Below, one piece after another: positions 1 to 20,157 of a stretch of 64,000 bases of DNA. The DNA is taken from positions 1 through 64,000 of IMG/VR virus record IMGVR_UViG_3300023174_000118. One strand, written 5' to 3'. This DNA comes from a virus. Numbering within the stretch: position 1 is the stretch's first letter; the number at the start of each line of letters is the position of its first letter. The notes beneath the pieces were generated by a model. The model was not told the DNA's origin and did not search any database. It saw only the letters and a program-made list of their open reading frames with translations. The position numbers and the translations under genes were made by a program.

Positions 1-102
1 TTTTGCACTTCCGTCCAAAACAACCCATGCTATAAACATTCCTAATAGAGTCCAAAGCTGATCGATCATATCTTGAATTACTTTTTTGATATAGTTAATC
101 AT
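1..102 (-). CDS. Small membrane protein, holin-like, partial
   Basis: The gene starts with ATG at 102 and runs off the window edge, so only 34 residues are visible. An AGGAG ribosome site lies about 7-8 nt before the ATG. The visible part has an amphipathic start (INYIKKVIQDMIDQ) followed by a hydrophobic stretch (LWTLLGMFIAWVVL) that fits one membrane helix. The start overlaps the end of the large surface-protein gene by 8 bp, so the two are co-transcribed. Its size, membrane helix and place after the lysis region suggest a holin or similar envelope protein. The family cannot be fixed from this fragment. Confidence 0.6.
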   Translation of the reverse strand, partial: MINYIKKVIQDMIDQLWTLLGMFIAWVVLDGSAK

Positions 103-2692
103 TCTTTCTTCTCCTCATTCCTTTGGAGTCACCAGAGGCTCCTCCTCCACCTGAACCACCTGAGTTACCCCCGCCTGAGCGAGAGCCTCCCGTAGATCCT
201 CCAGTGGATGCGCCTGCTACGGCGCCAACAGCATTTAATGCTGCTCCTGTTGCTACGACTGTAGCCACAACCATTTTTGTTGCTTCTTCTCTTTCGCCTT
301 CTGTCATATCCGCACCAATACTGCCAAGTGCTTCTAATGCTGCTCCTGGGTTATTAAATAATTCTGCTGCAAATGCTGCTGGATCTGATATCAATTCTAC
401 TTGTACAGCAACTTCTGCTGTAATAACAACTGCTTCACCATTTTCAGATGTACGAACATCTACTGGTGTATCTGGTGGTAAATCTGCTAATTTAATTCCA
501 GCCTCGGCTACCTGTTCTTTAGTTAGGTTTTCACCTTCTGGAACTGATTGAATTAATGCATCAGCAACAATATCTTTTTCTGCTTCAGATAATTTACCAT
601 CTGAACTGGCCAGTGCAACAATTGCTGCAACATCTTCTTTTGATACTTCTCCATCTGACGCAAGGGCTTTTAACACAGCCTCTTGGTCCGCTATTGAAAC
701 TTTTCCATCTGCTGCTAATGCATCAATTAATTGATCAGTTTCTTTTGCATCAATTTCTCCATCTGCTGACATTGCATCTGCAATATCTGCAACTTCTGTA
801 CTGTCTAATTTACCGTCTGCTAATGCATCATCAACAGTATTGTTTACATCTTCTATTGATCCCGCCTCTGGCTCAATCGCAGGTGGCTCTTCTGCAGGGG
901 GTTCTTCTGCAGGTGGCTCAACCACAGGTGGTTCTTCTGCAGGTGGCTCAACCACAGGTGGTTCTTCTGCAGGTGGTTCAACCGCAGGTGGCTCAACCGC
1001 AGGTGGTTCTTCTGCAGGTGGTTCTTCTGCAGGTGGCTCAACCGCAGGTGGTTCTTCTGCAGGTGGTTCAACCGCAGGTGGCTCAACCGCAGGTGGAGTA
1101 GGAGCTGGTGCAGGTGCTGGAATTACATTAATTACTGTTTGTGCCTCTGCAATTATTGCAGGTGCAGTAGTTACTTTTTCTACTGCTGTAGAAACAATTG
1201 CAAGATCTGCTACTTTTGCAGTTAATATTGTATTTGCTGTTGCTAATGCAGTCACAGTATTTTGTGAAACTGTTGCAATAGGAGCAATTACTGTATTTGT
1301 ATTTATTGTATTTGCTGCTACAACTGCTGTAATTGCTGAGTTTAATGTAGCAATTTGTGCATTTGCCGTATCAATTGCTGCCAATACTGTTGCATTGTCT
1401 GGATCAGGGGTAGGAGTAAATGCGGAGCCCTGAGTAATTGTTCCAGTAAAACCTGTTGTGGTGCTTGTATTAGCAATAGCTGTTACGGCACCCCCAGCTG
1501 TCTCTCTTACGTTAAACCTAGCACCATTTGGTATTGGCCCAGTCACACTTACATCTGCTTGCCATGCGCCATCTGCTGGGTTTACATCTGCATTAAATCT
1601 AATTTGAGTCATTTGAGTATCAGCAGTTCTTAAAGGATATACACGAACATCCCAAGCAACTGAAAGGGTGTTAGTTGTTGTTGAGTAGGTAACTCCAGAG
1701 CCATTACTCCATGTAGTCCAATCATATCCCGCTACAGAAATAGAAGGTGCATTAGGAGTAGAATAATAATTTGGGCCCTCATTTACACCAAAAGTAATAG
1801 TAGCATTAGATCCAACATAAACATTATTATATGTAACTCCGCCCATCTGTAAATTAAATGGAAGGTTCATTCGAACACCAGCATCGTCTACATTGGATAA
1901 AACATTTGTGGTTGTACCAATAGTTGCTGCAAGGGCATTAACTGCATCTTGAGCATTATTAATTGCTACGTTTGCTTGAGTTAATTGTGTTTGAGCCTCT
2001 GTTCGTGCAGGTGTTATTGCTGCTACTGCCGTGGTTGCCGTTGCAACTGTAGCTGTGGCAGTATCTACAGATGTTTGTGCTGTTTGAATTAAAGTAGTTG
2101 CTGTCTCTGATTGTGCAACTTCTACCGCAATTGCAGTTGCTACCTGAGTAACCGTAGTTGGCGCTTCTGTCATTAAGGGAGTTGCTGTGGCTATAACTGT
2201 AGACGTTGCTGATTCAATTACAGGTACTGCTGCAGTAATTACTGCCTGTGCTGTAATTACTTCTGGTGTTTGAGTTGTAGATGTTACTGGAATTGCAGCC
2301 ACTGCCTGTGTGACAGATGCTATTGTTGATGTAACTGTTTGAACAACTGTTGTTGCTGTTTCTACGGCTGAGGATACATTTGATACTTCTGCTACCGCAG
2401 CCGTCGCTGCTGCTACCGCTGTATTTGCTGCTGCTACGGCTGTATTAGATGCTGTTACCGCTTGCACAGCTGTTGCTATTGTTACTGTTGCTGTATCCGA
2501 TGCAGCTGCGGCTTGTGCAACTTCTGTCGTTGCAGTTGCGATTGCTGTATTGACCGCTTGTTGTGCTGGGCTTACAACAACTTGCTCTGAGGGGGCTGGT
2601 GGCTCATTAGCATTAGCAAAGTTAGGGCTAAAAAGGAAAAGCCAGCCGATTATAAAAAGGCTGGTAAAAAAATACTTTAGCTTTCTAGTCAA
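95..2692 (-). CDS. Large secreted, membrane-anchored surface protein with acidic DG repeats
   Basis: Start is TTG at 2692, with AGGAG 7 nt before it. An N-terminal signal peptide is visible: basic n-region, hydrophobic core LFIIGWLFLF, and an AxA-type site near residue 28. A long Ala/Thr/Val-rich low-complexity stretch (about residues 40-265) follows. Then comes a compact beta-rich domain (about 270-400) with the pattern PFNLQMGGVTYNNVYVGSN. Further on are a PPAVEPP/PPAEEPP linker and five acidic repeats of the form xDGKLSxxE. A hydrophobic helix (MVVATVVATGAALNAVGAVAG) precedes a Gly/Ser tail ending in RRRK. This looks like a protein exported by the host Sec system and held at the cell surface. 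I do not recognise the whole protein. Superinfection exclusion or an envelope or lysis role are guesses from its place before a holin-like gene. Confidence 0.8.
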   Translation of the reverse strand: MTRKLKYFFTSLFIIGWLFLFSPNFANANEPPAPSEQVVVSPAQQAVNTAIATATTEVAQAAAASDTATVTIATAVQAVTASNTAVAAANTAVAAATAAVAEVSNVSSAVETATTVVQTVTSTIASVTQAVAAIPVTSTTQTPEVITAQAVITAAVPVIESATSTVIATATPLMTEAPTTVTQVATAIAVEVAQSETATTLIQTAQTSVDTATATVATATTAVAAITPARTEAQTQLTQANVAINNAQDAVNALAATIGTTTNVLSNVDDAGVRMNLPFNLQMGGVTYNNVYVGSNATITFGVNEGPNYYSTPNAPSISVAGYDWTTWSNGSGVTYSTTTNTLSVAWDVRVYPLRTADTQMTQIRFNADVNPADGAWQADVSVTGPIPNGARFNVRETAGGAVTAIANTSTTTGFTGTITQGSAFTPTPDPDNATVLAAIDTANAQIATLNSAITAVVAANTINTNTVIAPIATVSQNTVTALATANTILTAKVADLAIVSTAVEKVTTAPAIIAEAQTVINVIPAPAPAPTPPAVEPPAVEPPAEEPPAVEPPAEEPPAEEPPAVEPPAVEPPAEEPPVVEPPAEEPPVVEPPAEEPPAEEPPAIEPEAGSIEDVNNTVDDALADGKLDSTEVADIADAMSADGEIDAKETDQLIDALAADGKVSIADQEAVLKALASDGEVSKEDVAAIVALASSDGKLSEAEKDIVADALIQSVPEGENLTKEQVAEAGIKLADLPPDTPVDVRTSENGEAVVITAEVAVQVELISDPAAFAAELFNNPGAALEALGSIGADMTEGEREEATKMVVATVVATGAALNAVGAVAGASTGGSTGGSRSGGGNSGGSGGGGASGDSKGMRRRKND
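880..1105 (-). repeat. Tandem PPAxEPP-coding repeat
   Basis: The DNA repeats a unit of about 15 bp reading as gcaggtggttc or gcaggtggctc variants, about 14 times. It encodes alternating PPAVE, PPAEE and PPVVE units. This makes an extended, acidic, proline-rich spacer between the beta domain and the DG repeats of the surface protein. Copy number could vary by slippage. The repeat also creates misleading open frames on both strands. Confidence 0.85.
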
Positions 2693-2947: not shown

Positions 2948-2979
2948 TACCTATCCTTTAATTATAGTGAGCAGTTTAA

Positions 2980-3048
2980 GGACTTACTCAGGTCCATCCT
3001 GCGGGTAACGGCCCGCTATCTGCGACTCCCCAGTGACGGGGTGCAGAT
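2980..3048 (-). ncRNA. Candidate structured small RNA or leader
   Basis: This short stretch is much richer in G+C than its surroundings and folds on the minus strand into three consecutive stems. P1 pairs ATCTGC (3043-3048) with GCAGAT (3018-3023) and encloses CCCC-GTCACT-GGGG. P2 is GCGGG-CCGTTA-CCCGC (3001-3016). P3 is GGAC-CTGAGTAA-GTCC (2980-2995). The first stem begins where a transcript from the TATAAT at 3053-3058 would start. It has no open frame of note and leads into the FmdB-like gene. It could be a stable small RNA, a leader regulating FmdB, or a terminator of hsp20 transcripts. I could not match it to a known riboswitch. Confidence 0.5.
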
Positions 3049-3052
3049 TTCT

Positions 3053-3058
3053 ATTATA
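3053..3058 (-). promoter_or_regulatory. -10 box before the structured RNA
   Basis: TATAAT sits a few bases after the hsp20 stop codon. The best -35 alternatives (AAACAA or AAAACA, 16-17 nt upstream, inside hsp20) are weak. A start 6-8 nt downstream would coincide with the first stem of the structured RNA. Confidence 0.4.
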
Positions 3059-3060
3059 CC

Positions 3061-3486
3061 TTACTTGATTTTAATTGTTTTAGGCTTCTTTTCTTCTGGA
3101 ACAACTCGTTCTACAAAAATATTAAGAAGACCGTTTTCTAAAGAAGCATTTGTAACTTCCATATACTCACCTAATGCAAAGGTGCGAGTAAACTTCCTGG
3201 CAGCAATTCCTTTATGAACTACATGCTTTGGAGCATCCTCTGTAAGATCTTTTCTTTCACCTTTAACCACGAGTGTTCCATTATCAACTTGAACCGAGAT
3301 GTCTTCTTTGCCAAAACCAGCTACTGCTAGAGTGACAACGTATTCATCATCATCATGTTGAAAAACATCATATGGTGGATAAGATTCGTGAATTGCTTCC
3401 CGATGTATATTATTAAGACGGGCTAAGTCTCTATTAAAGCCAATAAAAAATGGATCATTAAATAGATCCATGAATTGTGTTACCAT
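3061..3486 (-). CDS. Small heat shock protein (Hsp20/alpha-crystallin)
   Basis: The 141 residues contain the alpha-crystallin domain from about residue 38 (YPPYDVFQHDDDEYVV, VAGFGKEDISVQVDNGTLVV, then ARKFTRTFALGEYMEV and LENGLLNIFVERVVP). It ends with an IKIK tail of the I-x-I type used for oligomer contacts. sHsps hold unfolding proteins in a refoldable state without ATP. The start ATG at 3486 has an AAAGGGG ribosome site. A separate promoter lies upstream, so it can be expressed apart from the nuclease and endolysin genes before it. Hsp20 proteins are known from some large phages, and a role in virion assembly or stress during infection is inferred. Confidence 0.95.
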   Translation of the reverse strand: MVTQFMDLFNDPFFIGFNRDLARLNNIHREAIHESYPPYDVFQHDDDEYVVTLAVAGFGKEDISVQVDNGTLVVKGERKDLTEDAPKHVVHKGIAARKFTRTFALGEYMEVTNASLENGLLNIFVERVVPEEKKPKTIKIK

Positions 3487-3548: not shown

Positions 3549-3577
3549 ATTATAGCAAAATATTTATATCTTGTCTA
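3549..3577 (-). promoter_or_regulatory. hsp20 promoter
   Basis: TAGACA (3572-3577), a 17-nt spacer and TATAAT (3549-3554), with TGC directly before the -10. This is a near-consensus vegetative promoter. The -35 overlaps the stop codon of the nuclease gene. Expected start is near 3542, with a leader of about 55 nt. Confidence 0.75.
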
Positions 3578-3979
3578 CTTCTTTTTAGCCCTTACTTTAG
3601 CAAGTGCTTCAAAGTCCTTTACCTTGGTATCTCCTAGGTATCCCCAGGCATATCCATCGGAAATCATTTGTTCATTGACTGATATTTTAGATCCATCTAG
3701 GAATAGCCATCCAAGGATACGCCCGTATTTTTCTGATGAGTCCATTTTTTCTGTCTTAATGACAACATCTTTAGCATCTTTAATCTTAGACTTTACATAC
3801 TCTTTAGCCTCAAGCCCCAAAACTTTTTCGGCTTTATTTGTTGTTCTGCTTTCTGGAGTATCAATTCCAGCCAACCTAACTCTTGAGCTAAAAGATATGT
3901 CAAAACCTAGATCAATTTCTACGTCTATTGTATCTCCATCTACGACGTTAGTTACTTTTTTAACGTGATATTCGTACAT
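3575..3979 (-). CDS. Staphylococcal-type nuclease (thermonuclease)
   Basis: From the ATG at 3979 the protein has 134 residues with the SNase (OB-fold) signature: VVDGDTIDV, RVRLAGIDTPES and YGRILGWLFLDG. The catalytic R35, E43 and R87 and calcium ligand candidates such as D16 are all present. SNases cut DNA and RNA with Ca2+. I chose 3979 because its ATG overlaps the endolysin stop by one base (TAATG) and has an AAAGAAGAAG ribosome site; a start at 4036 would run inside the endolysin gene. No signal peptide is seen, so it probably acts in the cytoplasm, perhaps degrading host nucleic acid for nucleotides. Confidence 0.93.
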   Translation of the reverse strand: MYEYHVKKVTNVVDGDTIDVEIDLGFDISFSSRVRLAGIDTPESRTTNKAEKVLGLEAKEYVKSKIKDAKDVVIKTEKMDSSEKYGRILGWLFLDGSKISVNEQMISDGYAWGYLGDTKVKDFEALAKVRAKKK

Positions 3980-4531: not shown

Positions 4532-4975
4532 TTAGTTTACGGATGTCTTTAGTGAGGCTGACAATTGCCATGACCAAAACTGATGTTGATCAATTCTTTC
4601 TGCAATAAAGTTTGCAAGTCCTTGTTCATTTCCCGCATCTGCCATTTCAAAAGCATCTTTTAAATCTTTAATTATTTGATTATTGGAATCAAGTAAATTT
4701 CTAAGCATTTCCAAAGGTGACGTTGTTGGAAAATCATATTTTACGTTAGAAGCCTGTAGTATTTCATCAATTTGAAATGGTGCATACGCTCCAAGTTTTC
4801 TTGACCATTCTGCATAAGTATCAATTGATTCAAATACGTCTTCATAAATTTCTAAAAAGAATGCATGAAGTTGTTTAAACAAAATGCCTTCCACGTTCCA
4901 GTGATATCCGTGTGTTTTTGTATAAAATACAAAAGCATTAGATTGTAGTTGCTTGAGTTTATTTAATAGATCCAT
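4532..4975 (-). CDS. Dps-like ferritin protein
   Basis: The 147 residues match the Dps/ferritin-like four-helix family: THGYHWNVEG, LHAFFLEIYEDVFESIDTYAEW. Ferroxidase positions align with E. coli Dps: H25, H37, D52 and E56 fit H51, H63, D78 and E82. The position of D67 is L41, with E42 next to it, so one ligand may be shifted. Dps forms a 12-mer that stores iron and protects DNA from peroxide. The lysine-rich N-terminal tail used for DNA binding in E. coli is absent. A -10 box 6 nt before the ATG suggests a leaderless transcript of its own. A role in protecting phage or host DNA late in infection is inferred. Confidence 0.9.
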   Translation of the reverse strand: MDLLNKLKQLQSNAFVFYTKTHGYHWNVEGILFKQLHAFFLEIYEDVFESIDTYAEWSRKLGAYAPFQIDEILQASNVKYDFPTTSPLEMLRNLLDSNNQIIKDLKDAFEMADAGNEQGLANFIAERIDQHQFWSWQLSASLKTSVN

Positions 4976-5562: not shown

Positions 5563-5814
5563 CTATTGTATCGTGCCATCTTCATTCTTGTCAATAGTTT
5601 CTTCTACTATTTGCTGAACATATTCAGAAAAATGTTTTCTAATATTTCCCATTGGCCTATGCCCAGCAGATTTCCATATTCTCTTATATTCAATTACATT
5701 AGCAAATGTAGTTGGGCATAAAACTATCCCACTATATTCTTTTAGTACTGTTGGCAGTGGAACATGCTTGCCACAGCATTTACATTCTTTAGCTTTTTCT
5801 TGATATGTACTCAT
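5563..5814 (-). CDS. Small zinc-finger-like protein
   Basis: The 83 residues carry CKCCGKHVPLP near the N-terminus and a further Cys (IVLCPTT), which could bind one zinc. The rest is basic then acidic, with helices (NVIEYKRIWKSAGHRPMGNIRKHFSEYV). The start overlaps the end of the terminase large subunit gene by 4 bp, so the two are translated together. It may be a DNA-packaging accessory protein. No family recognised. Confidence 0.75.
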   Translation of the reverse strand: MSTYQEKAKECKCCGKHVPLPTVLKEYSGIVLCPTTFANVIEYKRIWKSAGHRPMGNIRKHFSEYVQQIVEETIDKNEDGTIQ

Positions 5815-7613
5815 ATTATTGTCATCCTGTCCATTGCATCTCTTAAGTTTTCTGGCATTCTTGGTGCCCTTATCATATTATATGAGCTGGTTTCTCCGTC
5901 ATTTTTTGTTCCAAAGTCGTTGTCATAACTCATGGACTCATAGGTATGTATATTTATTTCTTCATTTGTATCAAATTTACTTCTGCTAATAGCATTGTAA
6001 ATAGCTCCACAAACTGCATCCGCCAAGTCTTTTGAACCTTTTCTTGGGTGGTCAACCCTATCTCTCATTATCTTAAGCTGAAGTAATTCATCTATAAGCA
6101 ATTGTATATGTGGTCCAGATAATCTTTCTTCTGCTACGATCATAGCCATATCGTCATAATGTTTTTTAGCGACAGATAGAATTTCTGTATTGATGCCGTA
6201 TTGTTTTAGTTGTTGCATCATATCGTGAGAGTTCCATCTGTCAAAGGTGCAGACACGAATTTTAAATCCTCGTGTTTTTAATGAAAGAATATAATCTTTT
6301 ACTTCAGTAAAGTCTACTGATTTATCTTTTGTTGGTGTCCAGAATCTTACTGCATCTATCTCAACTATGGGAGCTGGCTGGGAATATGTATCAGTAACTT
6401 TAATGTTGACCCATTTATTTACATGTCCCATTGCAACTGCACAATGATCGTGCTTTTGAGCAAGGTCAACGTGTATAAAATATTCTTTGTCTGGATCTGG
6501 AATAAACCAGTCTTCAAGTCTGCCAAAATTATCTACTGCAAAGTGTGCTTTATTAAAAGCCTTTTCAACTTTCTCTCTTGATTTAAAAAATGCGTCTACA
6601 GCATCTGGTGGCATACATGCAAATCTAGATAAAGCATCCGTAGGGTTTGTAAAGAATGCTACTTTAAAATCATCAATCTTTCTTACTGGATTAACTTCCC
6701 ATGTGGGTCTTTTAAGAGCATACACTCTAGGTATTTTATATGAAAGAATATGGTCTTCTTCCCATTCAACACTGAATTCGTTTCCTTGTGTTCCATCTGG
6801 CAAGTCTTCGTCCATCTTAAAATTATGATCACGAATAATAGTTTCTTTGTCCGCTACTACAGCATTGTATCTTTGTTGTATATAATCGTTTTTATATCTA
6901 GGAAATGACAGCAGGATTACTTTGCCAAAATCTGGAAAACGAGAGTCTACTGATGCACGGTACATATCATATATAGCTGCGCCTGTCTTTGCCTGCTCGT
7001 GACCTGTTGTATTATCAATGGCAAATCCTGAAATTTCATCAAGTATAACAACAATTACGTTATAGCCTTCCCACGCTTCACGCTCTGAGTGACCTGAGTG
7101 TACTGTAATAGCTTTATCAAATTTAACTTCTGAGGCCTTGTCATTATACTTTCCAGCAAACCAAGGTGACTTATCGATGCGTGTTTTAAACCCTTTGAAG
7201 AACACGTTGCTTGCCTGTTGAGAGTTAATAGCAATGTTAATAATATCAATGCTATCTCCTGGAGGCTTTCCGTAATATGTGGCTGGATCCTTAAGGCATA
7301 ATAGCAAATATACTATATAGGATACTGCAATAGTTGAGCAATAATCTTTTCCCGACCCTTTTCCTAATTGAGCAACTACTTCGTTAGCAGTTTGCTTAAA
7401 CCTTATTCTTCCTTCTTCTTCTCCAAATAGCTTGATAAGCGTTGACTCTTTATAAATCTGGGAACTTTTTTCGATAAGCGTGTACTGATAGTCGGAAAGT
7501 TCTGGAAGCCCAAGGTATTCTGGACTTCTAACAAACGTTTTAAGATCGACTGGTTTCTCATCGAACTCCTCTCCATCGAGCATATCGATAAGATCGGTAA
7601 AATCAAACGACAT
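5811..7613 (-). CDS. terL: Terminase large subunit (packaging ATPase and nuclease)
   Basis: The 600 residues have both terminase halves. The ATPase has a Walker A variant QLGKGSGKD (residues 82-90) and Walker B VIVVILDE (186-193). The C-terminal RNase H-like nuclease has acidic residues D383 (HVDLAQKHD), D458 (VCTFDRW) and D529/D532 (SKDLADAVCGA). It pumps DNA into the prohead through the portal and cuts the concatemer. It overlaps the small-subunit-like gene upstream by 11 bp. The gene lies about 41 kb from the portal gene, an unusual separation unless the map is viewed as a circle. Confidence 0.95.
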   Translation of the reverse strand: MSFDFTDLIDMLDGEEFDEKPVDLKTFVRSPEYLGLPELSDYQYTLIEKSSQIYKESTLIKLFGEEEGRIRFKQTANEVVAQLGKGSGKDYCSTIAVSYIVYLLLCLKDPATYYGKPPGDSIDIINIAINSQQASNVFFKGFKTRIDKSPWFAGKYNDKASEVKFDKAITVHSGHSEREAWEGYNVIVVILDEISGFAIDNTTGHEQAKTGAAIYDMYRASVDSRFPDFGKVILLSFPRYKNDYIQQRYNAVVADKETIIRDHNFKMDEDLPDGTQGNEFSVEWEEDHILSYKIPRVYALKRPTWEVNPVRKIDDFKVAFFTNPTDALSRFACMPPDAVDAFFKSREKVEKAFNKAHFAVDNFGRLEDWFIPDPDKEYFIHVDLAQKHDHCAVAMGHVNKWVNIKVTDTYSQPAPIVEIDAVRFWTPTKDKSVDFTEVKDYILSLKTRGFKIRVCTFDRWNSHDMMQQLKQYGINTEILSVAKKHYDDMAMIVAEERLSGPHIQLLIDELLQLKIMRDRVDHPRKGSKDLADAVCGAIYNAISRSKFDTNEEINIHTYESMSYDNDFGTKNDGETSSYNMIRAPRMPENLRDAMDRMTII

Positions 7614-19158: not shown

Positions 19159-20157
19159 TTATGGGTTCCAAGATCTGTATTCTATGTCTGATACTGCATT
19201 TTTAATACAGATTTTAATTTCTTCATCAGTCATATCACCAGCATCTTTTGCATCATGTGGATATATCTTACCATATTCGTAAGAAGCCCACAAGAGGTCT
19301 TTATTTTTTAATCTATTGGCTATGCTCAAGCCTAGCTCTCTGCCAGCCAAATCTGCGTCTGTCATTACGGTTACTTTATTAAAATACCTATTAAGAAGTT
19401 TATGCTGCTCGTTTGATAAAAAACCTCCAAGGGTGGCAACAACATTTGGAAATCCAGCCTGATGCACACGGATTGCATCAAAACTAGACTCCACAACTAT
19501 AACATTGCTACCAATTCTTTTGGCACGATGTAAATTAAATAATGTCTTGCTCTTTGGTAGGTTAGTGCTATTCTTAAAAGATTTGCCTTCAATTGATCTT
19601 CCTACAATTCCGATTGGTGTGCCGTCTGGACTATGCACTGGAACAGTAACCATATTTTGTTTTTCAGAATAACCTAAAGCAAAATGTGTCATTGAAGACA
19701 TCTCTATTCCTCTTGATTTAAAATAGTCTTTAGCCTTTTCAGAATTAACTAATCCATTATATAAACCCTTTAAAGTATCTTCTGAAAACTCTTCAAAATC
19801 AGGCTTGTCTTCTAATATGCTTGCCATTATTTCATCAAAGTTATCCAGTACTTCTTTTTCTTGAGCGCCTATAAACCTAATAGCTTCAAAATCATTTTTG
19901 TGTAATACACGTCTTACTAGTTCTACCAATGTTCCAGACTCTCCGCATGATGGGTTAAAGCATAGCCAAACCCCTGTAGATTTATTTATGCAACAGCTTG
20001 CTGTATGTCTATTAGAATGAAATGGGCAGTAAAACATAACCTCATTACCTGGTTCTGCCACAACATCTAAGCCTAAATTTTTAATTATAGCCTTGATATG
20101 GTTTGGCGCATACTGCGTGGAATTAACTTTCCTTGCGTTATGCCCTCTGATAGCCAT
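19159..20157 (-). CDS. DnaG-type DNA primase
   Basis: From ATG 20157 the 332 residues have an N-terminal CHC2 zinc domain (C44, H47, C66, C71; MFYCPFHSNRH and VWLCFNPSCGESG). A Toprim core follows (IVVESSFDAIRVHQAG, ATLGGFLSNEQ, VTVMTDADLAGREL). It makes RNA primers for the fork. It is shorter than bacterial DnaG, lacking a clear helicase-binding C-terminal domain. An AGGAAAG site precedes ATG 20157; a start at 20208 is less likely. Confidence 0.93.
   Translation of the reverse strand: MAIRGHNARKVNSTQYAPNHIKAIIKNLGLDVVAEPGNEVMFYCPFHSNRHTASCCINKSTGVWLCFNPSCGESGTLVELVRRVLHKNDFEAIRFIGAQEKEVLDNFDEIMASILEDKPDFEEFSEDTLKGLYNGLVNSEKAKDYFKSRGIEMSSMTHFALGYSEKQNMVTVPVHSPDGTPIGIVGRSIEGKSFKNSTNLPKSKTLFNLHRAKRIGSNVIVVESSFDAIRVHQAGFPNVVATLGGFLSNEQHKLLNRYFNKVTVMTDADLAGRELGLSIANRLKNKDLLWASYEYGKIYPHDAKDAGDMTDEEIKICIKNAVSDIEYRSWNP

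Follow-up and report, generated by a model that had tools for sequence, protein, structure and literature searches.

What is the GC-rich stretch that separates the hsp20 gene from an FmdB-like zinc-ribbon gene on the minus strand of the phage record IMGVR_UViG_3300023174_000118: a small RNA, a switch for the downstream gene, or simply the end of the hsp20 message? All three possibilities had been raised in a preliminary description that placed the element at 2980 to 3058. We studied a 64-kb stretch of this 86.8-kb record (hereafter, the window), and our data confirm the observation of a small structured RNA. The GC content of the 80-nt element is 56%, versus 24 to 46% in the segments flanking it, so that the stretch stands out as described. 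Downstream of hsp20 on the minus strand come, in order, a TATAAT, hairpins P1 and P2, a linker (AGGAU), a pseudoknot, a tail devoid of G, and the Shine-Dalgarno sequence and coding region of the FmdB-like gene (Table 1), the product of which matches Zn_ribbon_8 with an E value of 2e-4, below the Pfam cutoff, and phrog_13665 with an E value of 8.5e-6.

Table 1. Features of the structured element and its neighbors (window coordinates)
Feature	Position	Strand	Basis or remark
hsp20/alpha-crystallin gene	3061..3486	-	PF00011, E 3.2e-21; phrog_432; unchanging upstream neighbor
TATAAT, possible -10 element	3053..3058	-	sequence; good -35 missing
Hairpin P1, outer	3018..3048	-	ATCTGC 3048-3043 / GCAGAT 3023-3018; folding
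Hairpin P1, inner helix	CCCC 3041-3038 / GGGG 3031-3028	-	folding
Hairpin P2	3001..3016	-	GCGGG 3016-3012 / CCCGC 3005-3001; loop CCGUUA, UCGCUA in relatives
Linker AGGAU	2996..3000	-	conserved in alignment of relatives
H-type pseudoknot	2969..2995	-	covariation; S1, L1, S2, L2, L3
Pseudoknot S1	GGAC 2995-2992 / GUCC 2983-2980	-	4 bp
Pseudoknot L1, CU	2991-2990	-	
Pseudoknot S2	GAGUA 2989-2985 / UGCUC 2973-2969	-	5 bp
Pseudoknot L2, A	2984	-	
Pseudoknot L3, UUAAAC	2979-2974	-	
A/U-rich tail without G, ACTATAATTA	2959..2968	-	directly 3' of pseudoknot; 4 T in 9
Shine-Dalgarno AAAGGA of FmdB-like gene	2959-2954	-	
FmdB-like zinc-ribbon gene, 62 aa	2759..2947	-	ATG 21 nt 3' of pseudoknot

On the minus strand, positions 2980 to 3058 fold at -28.6 kcal/mol (z -2.45 versus shuffles) and positions 2969 to 3052 at -30.6 kcal/mol (z -2.15), the structure consisting of a long 5' stem that encloses an inner helix, followed by two more hairpins. 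The plus strand gives a better fold (z -3.5), so that folding energy by itself is a modest argument and leaves the strand unsettled. A transcript begun 6 to 8 nt 3' of the TATAAT would start within the first stem, much as had been suggested, but no -35 box matching at least four of six positions was found at normal spacing. The suggestion that the stretch encodes nothing obvious held up as well: a possible AUG inside the third hairpin opens a frame of 11 codons, which we rejected as a translated upstream ORF, its stop being absent from several relatives, and no conserved coding was found in the element.

While the nested stem and the two hairpins are indeed how the minus strand folds, the third hairpin is half of a larger structure. 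The GAGUA of its loop pairs with a UGCUC 11 nt farther along (2973-2969), and the result is an H-type pseudoknot; the element thus reaches 2969, and the 3' strand of S2 lay outside the bounds first proposed. The core consensus comprises S1 of 4 to 5 bp, L1 = CU, S2 of 5 bp (usually GAGYA/UGCUC), a 1-nt L2, and an L3 ending in AAAC, where the constancy of the loops is partly set by the search, as L1 = CU and an L3 ending in AAAC were preset in the scans. Rarer forms with AAAGGCUC occur in Rhizobium phage RHph_TM30 and in the L098 group. When loops and S2 were fixed and S1 was left free, S1 had at least 3 bp in 98 of the 102 instances inspected among the matches listed. Conversely, with S1 fixed and S2 free, S2 paired at 4 of 4 positions in 82/104 unique sites among the matches listed, and 50 of the 72 listed sites departing from GAGY/GCTC still paired, through variants such as AAGC/GCTT, GAGT/ACTC, GAAC/GTTC, GGGC/GCCC, and AGAC/GTCT; in a side sample at the rarer 6-nt spacing, again with S2 free, 47/96 of the listed sites were paired.

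Pair-by-pair tests used the helix that had not been subject to pattern selection, and alignment A2 was excluded because its members had been chosen for pairing. Within these unselected sets, whose sequences are related to one another, the successive S1 pairs formed in 90, 90, 91, and 73 of 91 sequences (shuffle maxima, 88, 58, 48, and 55) and the S2 pairs in 84, 91, 90, and 85 of 95 (shuffle maxima, 78, 81, 82, and 84), so that every count in both sets exceeded all 1000 shuffles, with many two-sided changes. Furthermore, the viral loci examined contain 395 unique pseudoknot copies, versus 2 in reversed sequence (9.03 Mb). The element therefore contains a conserved H-type pseudoknot with covariation in both crossing helices, and this evidence for the structure is decisive. 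Together with the lack of an Rfam match (see below), the covariation bears out the earlier expectation of a conserved noncoding phage RNA.

The complete element, including its 5' hairpins, has a narrower distribution. The exact 16-mer of P2 is present in at least 78 IMG/VR contigs, 64 of which carry the whole element, and in an alignment of 36 distinct relatives, 97% of pair cells were formed, compared with 41 to 49% when the partners were slid. This alignment contains two-sided changes at four pairs, and its covariation score was reached by 1/500 shuffles; three pairs with two-sided changes belong to helices 1 and 2. By direct reading, the closing pair of P2 is G-C, T-A, or A-T among relatives, a variation left unregistered in the MAFFT alignment.

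The neighborhood of hsp20 speaks to the proposed switch. Of 86 unique sequences flanking hsp20 homologs on the 3' side, 71 contained the pseudoknot by a strict scan and about 10 more by eye, while the gene behind it varied, being FmdB-like, a thermonuclease, or unrelated. Because the RNA keeps hsp20 as its upstream neighbor but has various genes behind it, a switch serving the FmdB-like gene alone is disfavored, all the more so since the core also precedes scaffold, glutaredoxin, primase, tRNA, and tmRNA genes and occupies tail-to-tail junctions. In 58/86 relatives, a TATAAT occurs no more than 40 nt from the hsp20 stop. At three loci (L252, L263, and L233), the hsp20 stop is followed by 6 nt, the pseudoknot, a T-run, and then a TATAAT. 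A second promoter 3' of the window pseudoknot (ACTATAATT) was considered and rejected, as it is not conserved among hsp20 flanks.

Two further RNA forms were noticed near hsp20. One, an extended form of the hsp20-linked RNA, lies 3' of hsp20 at L271, L305, L272, L337, L341, L264, L191, and L206, where the order is TATAAT, a branched 5' domain with the outer stem ATTCCG.../...CGGAT, a P2-like hairpin, the pseudoknot, and a second promoter-like site. A possible second noncoding RNA of about 90 nt is found 3' of hsp20 at L317 and L351 and after the pseudoknot at L305. This candidate, which gave no Rfam match at an E value of 1 at these three loci, is closed by CCCCACACAGG/CCTGTGTGGGG, begins after TACAATATAA, and shares a GTTACC...GGATAGAGACC core with P2 plus linker.

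Stripped of the two 5' hairpins of the window version, the pseudoknot constitutes a wider family that recurs in hundreds of phage contigs. Its carriers belong to groups associated with Firmicutes, Actinobacteria, Cyanobacteria, Alphaproteobacteria, and Bacteroidetes (crAss-like phages), that is, at least five host phyla. It precedes the scaffold gene in Lactobacillus phages KC5a, Lj771, and phig1e and in phiEF-1.1 and stands after or beside ribonucleotide reductase in roseophage SIO1, Lentibacter phages ICBM1 and ICBM2, and Celeribacter phage P12053L. Further carriers are Mycobacterium phage Labelle, Synechococcus phage S-H35, and the crAss-like phages cr124_1 and cr7_1, and slightly degenerate forms occur in Staphylococcus phage StB12 and Anoxybacillus phage A403. 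An additional hairpin 5' of the pseudoknot is weakly enriched outside the hsp20 group (11% versus 5%). BLAST matches in Erwinia phages, E. coli phages, and S-WAM1 contained no pseudoknot. We also rejected a role in bacterial genomes: matches in GTDB are mostly chance-like, with an S1 of at most 2 bp in 84/115 of those listed, and the remaining genome matches are perhaps prophages.

This 27-nt pseudoknot, recurring between the genes of phages from at least five host phyla, is absent from Rfam 15. The covariance-model search that had been suggested returned only tRNAs at the gathering threshold across the whole window, two chance matches around the element (E values of 1.5 and 10), and nothing at the pseudoknot of 28 further loci or phages; preQ1, SAM-II, STAXI, manA, wcaG, and ROSE were among the families that gave no covariance-model match. 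Short loops of this kind are familiar from preQ1-I riboswitches and polerovirus frameshift elements, which have a 2-nt L1, a 1-nt L2, and an A-rich L3 over S1. By this general comparison the phage pseudoknot is alike in L1, L2, and L3, but it differs in its conserved letters, its site after a stop codon, its closed frame, and its varied downstream genes. The GP20-a and GP20-b motifs of Weinberg et al. (2017) are reportedly linked, by their name, to the GP20 scaffold gene; going by the name alone, they resemble the Lactobacillus phage copies, which a scaffold gene follows, and those names may already cover this subset in the literature, although none of the Rfam families matched the copies from Lactobacillus phages. 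Phage RNAs containing pseudoknots include STAXI, a tandem repeat, and manA and wcaG, of which manA is described in 5' untranslated regions (UTRs) and, in marine phages, in the vicinity of ibpA (hsp20) chaperones (Weinberg et al. 2010, PMC2864571); unlike these, our element yields no Rfam match to any of the three. Pseudoknots go unmentioned in the main text of a 2021 microbiome survey (PMC8040213). The element lies 3' of hsp20, not in the hsp20 5' UTR over the ribosome site as a heat-shock RNA thermometer would, and its downstream genes are diverse where a riboswitch would be linked to those of a single pathway. Similarly, the ToxI-like tandem repeats of type III toxin-antitoxin RNAs are not seen, the window holding a single copy and tandem pairs occurring in few loci (L169 and L476), and none of the pseudoknot neighbors scanned with PHROGs and Pfam was called a toxin.

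The position of the pseudoknot was read relative to genes called by a simple ORF method. In 174 co-directional cases, the distance from the stop codon to S1 peaks at 5 to 9 nt (75/174), and distances to the next start spread widely and peak at 20 to 25 nt; both distances have sharp minima, of about 5 nt to the stop and about 17 nt to the start. The 9-nt tail contains at least five T's in 42% of copies, versus 9 to 11% of controls, and lacks G in 60%, versus 14 to 24%. A same-strand tRNA begins 3 to 14 nt downstream of 28/294 copies and an opposite-strand tRNA after none; many of these are tRNA-Asp, in related contigs, and Lys, Trp, Arg, Met, Ser, and Gln tRNAs also occur. In cr124_1 (L476), a pseudoknot (3918-3945) lies directly 5' of the phage tmRNA and two tandem pseudoknots (19961-20028) lie 5' of tRNA-Val, in each case at a spacing that fits RNase P cleavage. 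Elsewhere, the downstream genes are as diverse as scaffold, glutaredoxin, and primase.

Two independent loci are tail to tail. At L601 and its close relative L606, a tail-assembly gene and the gene for the ribonucleotide reductase small subunit converge on the pseudoknot, which the stop of the latter overlaps, and at L191, a peroxidase gene and a small ORF do so. Other apparently convergent cases, including L229 and L522, proved co-directional on inspection. We verified no divergent junction with a pseudoknot among the loci inspected: L196 and L254, and probably L616, reflect antisense ORFs called over hsp20, and L585, L589, L595, and L663 were ambiguous. Promoter-like sites (matching 11/12 positions) are enriched 3' of the pseudoknot (2.1% versus 0.2%), and not 5' of it (0.3% versus 0.1%). 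At four loci in Gram-positive-type phages (L176, L285, L613, and L614), the U-tract of an ordinary terminator directly touches S1, and T5 to T7 follows the pseudoknot in all of these except L614; overall, 11/357 upstream terminators abut the 5' side of a pseudoknot, versus 0.5% expected.

This anatomy, with its stop spacing, a stack before a weak U-tract, RNase P sites, tail-to-tail copies, and promoter-like sites on the 3' side, suits a transcript-end element. In the best-supported reading, which we hold tentatively, as function is here deduced from sequence, the pseudoknot may act as a terminator-like structure and/or a shield of the 3' end. In this scenario, stacking of S1 and S2 would yield a rigid helix of about 9 to 10 bp directly 5' of the tail. 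Such a helix could help RNA polymerase to pause and let go at that point, block 3'-to-5' exonucleases, or do both; the protected end would arise through termination or, where a tRNA or tmRNA adjoins, through RNase P. The pseudoknot would stand outside the footprint of the terminating ribosome. The window copy might mark where the hsp20 message, or else a short RNA begun at the TATAAT, comes to an end, with partial read-through into the FmdB-like gene remaining.

Of the possibilities raised earlier, the end of the hsp20 message comes nearest, but not as a classical terminator: no GC-rich hairpin with a U-run was found at 2959-3058. Like an intrinsic (Rho-independent) terminator, the element would set about 9 to 10 stacked pairs immediately 5' of a tail rich in U and poor in G, at a site that closely follows stop codons and in some cases closely precedes a new promoter, but a pseudoknot with the conserved loops CU and AAAC takes the place of the simple hairpin, its U-tract is often weak, and copies also lie 3 to 8 nt before tRNAs. 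These last copies cannot be U-tract terminators. Many tails lack a U-run, and the tail in the window has few T's (Table 1); the TATAAT just 5' in the hsp20 group would place the pseudoknot near a 5' end. The four terminator-adjoined loci likewise count against a transcript-end role, since the pseudoknot there would lie beyond the first transcript end. More broadly, phages may possess a hitherto undescribed RNA family of their own, whose mini-pseudoknot stands in for the terminator hairpin or caps RNase P-made 3' ends, a proposal that we would sooner doubt than assert. If the pseudoknot does end or protect transcripts, it would represent a new way of making RNA ends in bacteria, one that phages of at least five host phyla share to end and protect their transcripts, and it would improve the reading of phage operons and offer a compact part for RNA engineering.

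Since the downstream gene usually reads in the same direction, position is compatible with a 5' role in most cases. The pseudoknot might then be an aptamer or protein-binding site governing the translation or transcription of the next gene, T4 gene 32 being an example of an autoregulated leader. Compact pseudoknots with an A-rich L3, as here, are typical small aptamers; many copies lie 20 to 25 nt 5' of a start codon, synteny is kept before the Lactobacillus phage scaffold genes and before glutaredoxin or PhoH in cobaviruses, and a TATAAT precedes the pseudoknot in the hsp20 group. Such control is nevertheless unlikely, considering that the next genes are functionally unrelated and include tRNAs and tmRNA, that tail-to-tail copies have no co-directional gene to govern, and that around hsp20 the RNA outlasts changes of the gene behind it. 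The sharp minimum distances to stop and start codons and the close spacing to RNase P sites are what one would expect of an insulator or roadblock placed where genes meet, or of an RNA-processing site, acting for instance to fix a nuclease cleavage point, to block 5'-to-3' decay, or to hold terminating and initiating ribosomes apart; as neither would need a U-rich, G-poor tail or predict tail-to-tail copies, we regard this as rather improbable.

The put RNAs of phage HK022 act in cis, the nascent RNA modifying the polymerase so that it ignores later terminators. A comparable antiterminator would suit untranslated stretches 5' of tRNA clusters, and copies do precede tRNAs and tmRNA, lie inside late operons before scaffold and capsid genes, and in some cases stand directly 3' of a terminator. 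Yet a U-rich tail would be unexpected, tail-to-tail copies would drive antisense reading, and the 86.8-kb record has one copy only, which makes an antiterminator distinctly improbable. Finally, the succession of stop codon, 5- to 10-nt spacer, and pseudoknot also resembles retroviral and luteoviral recoding sites. That our element stimulates read-through or frameshifting is scarcely credible: the stop is TAA in 109/130 cases, the frame past it closes after a median of 7 codons with no open frame beyond, no slippery heptamer was seen, and tRNA-adjacent copies have nothing for a fusion.

Other features of the window are recorded here in their own right. On the minus strand 5' of hsp20, a strong promoter-like site (3549-3577) matches 11 of 12 positions, with TAGACA, 17 nt, and TATAAT and a TG before the second hexamer. 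An 865-aa protein (95-2692, minus strand) with long Ala/Thr/Val-rich and PPAEEPP/PPAVEPP repeat tracts has no PHROG match, and a 147-aa protein (4532-4975, minus strand) that matches phrog_3636, "DNA binding protein," is possibly Dps-like. The terminase large subunit (5814-7613, minus strand) is about 64 to 65% identical to those of Streptomyces phages, e.g., Francob and Gilson, a likeness that suggests an actinobacterial host.
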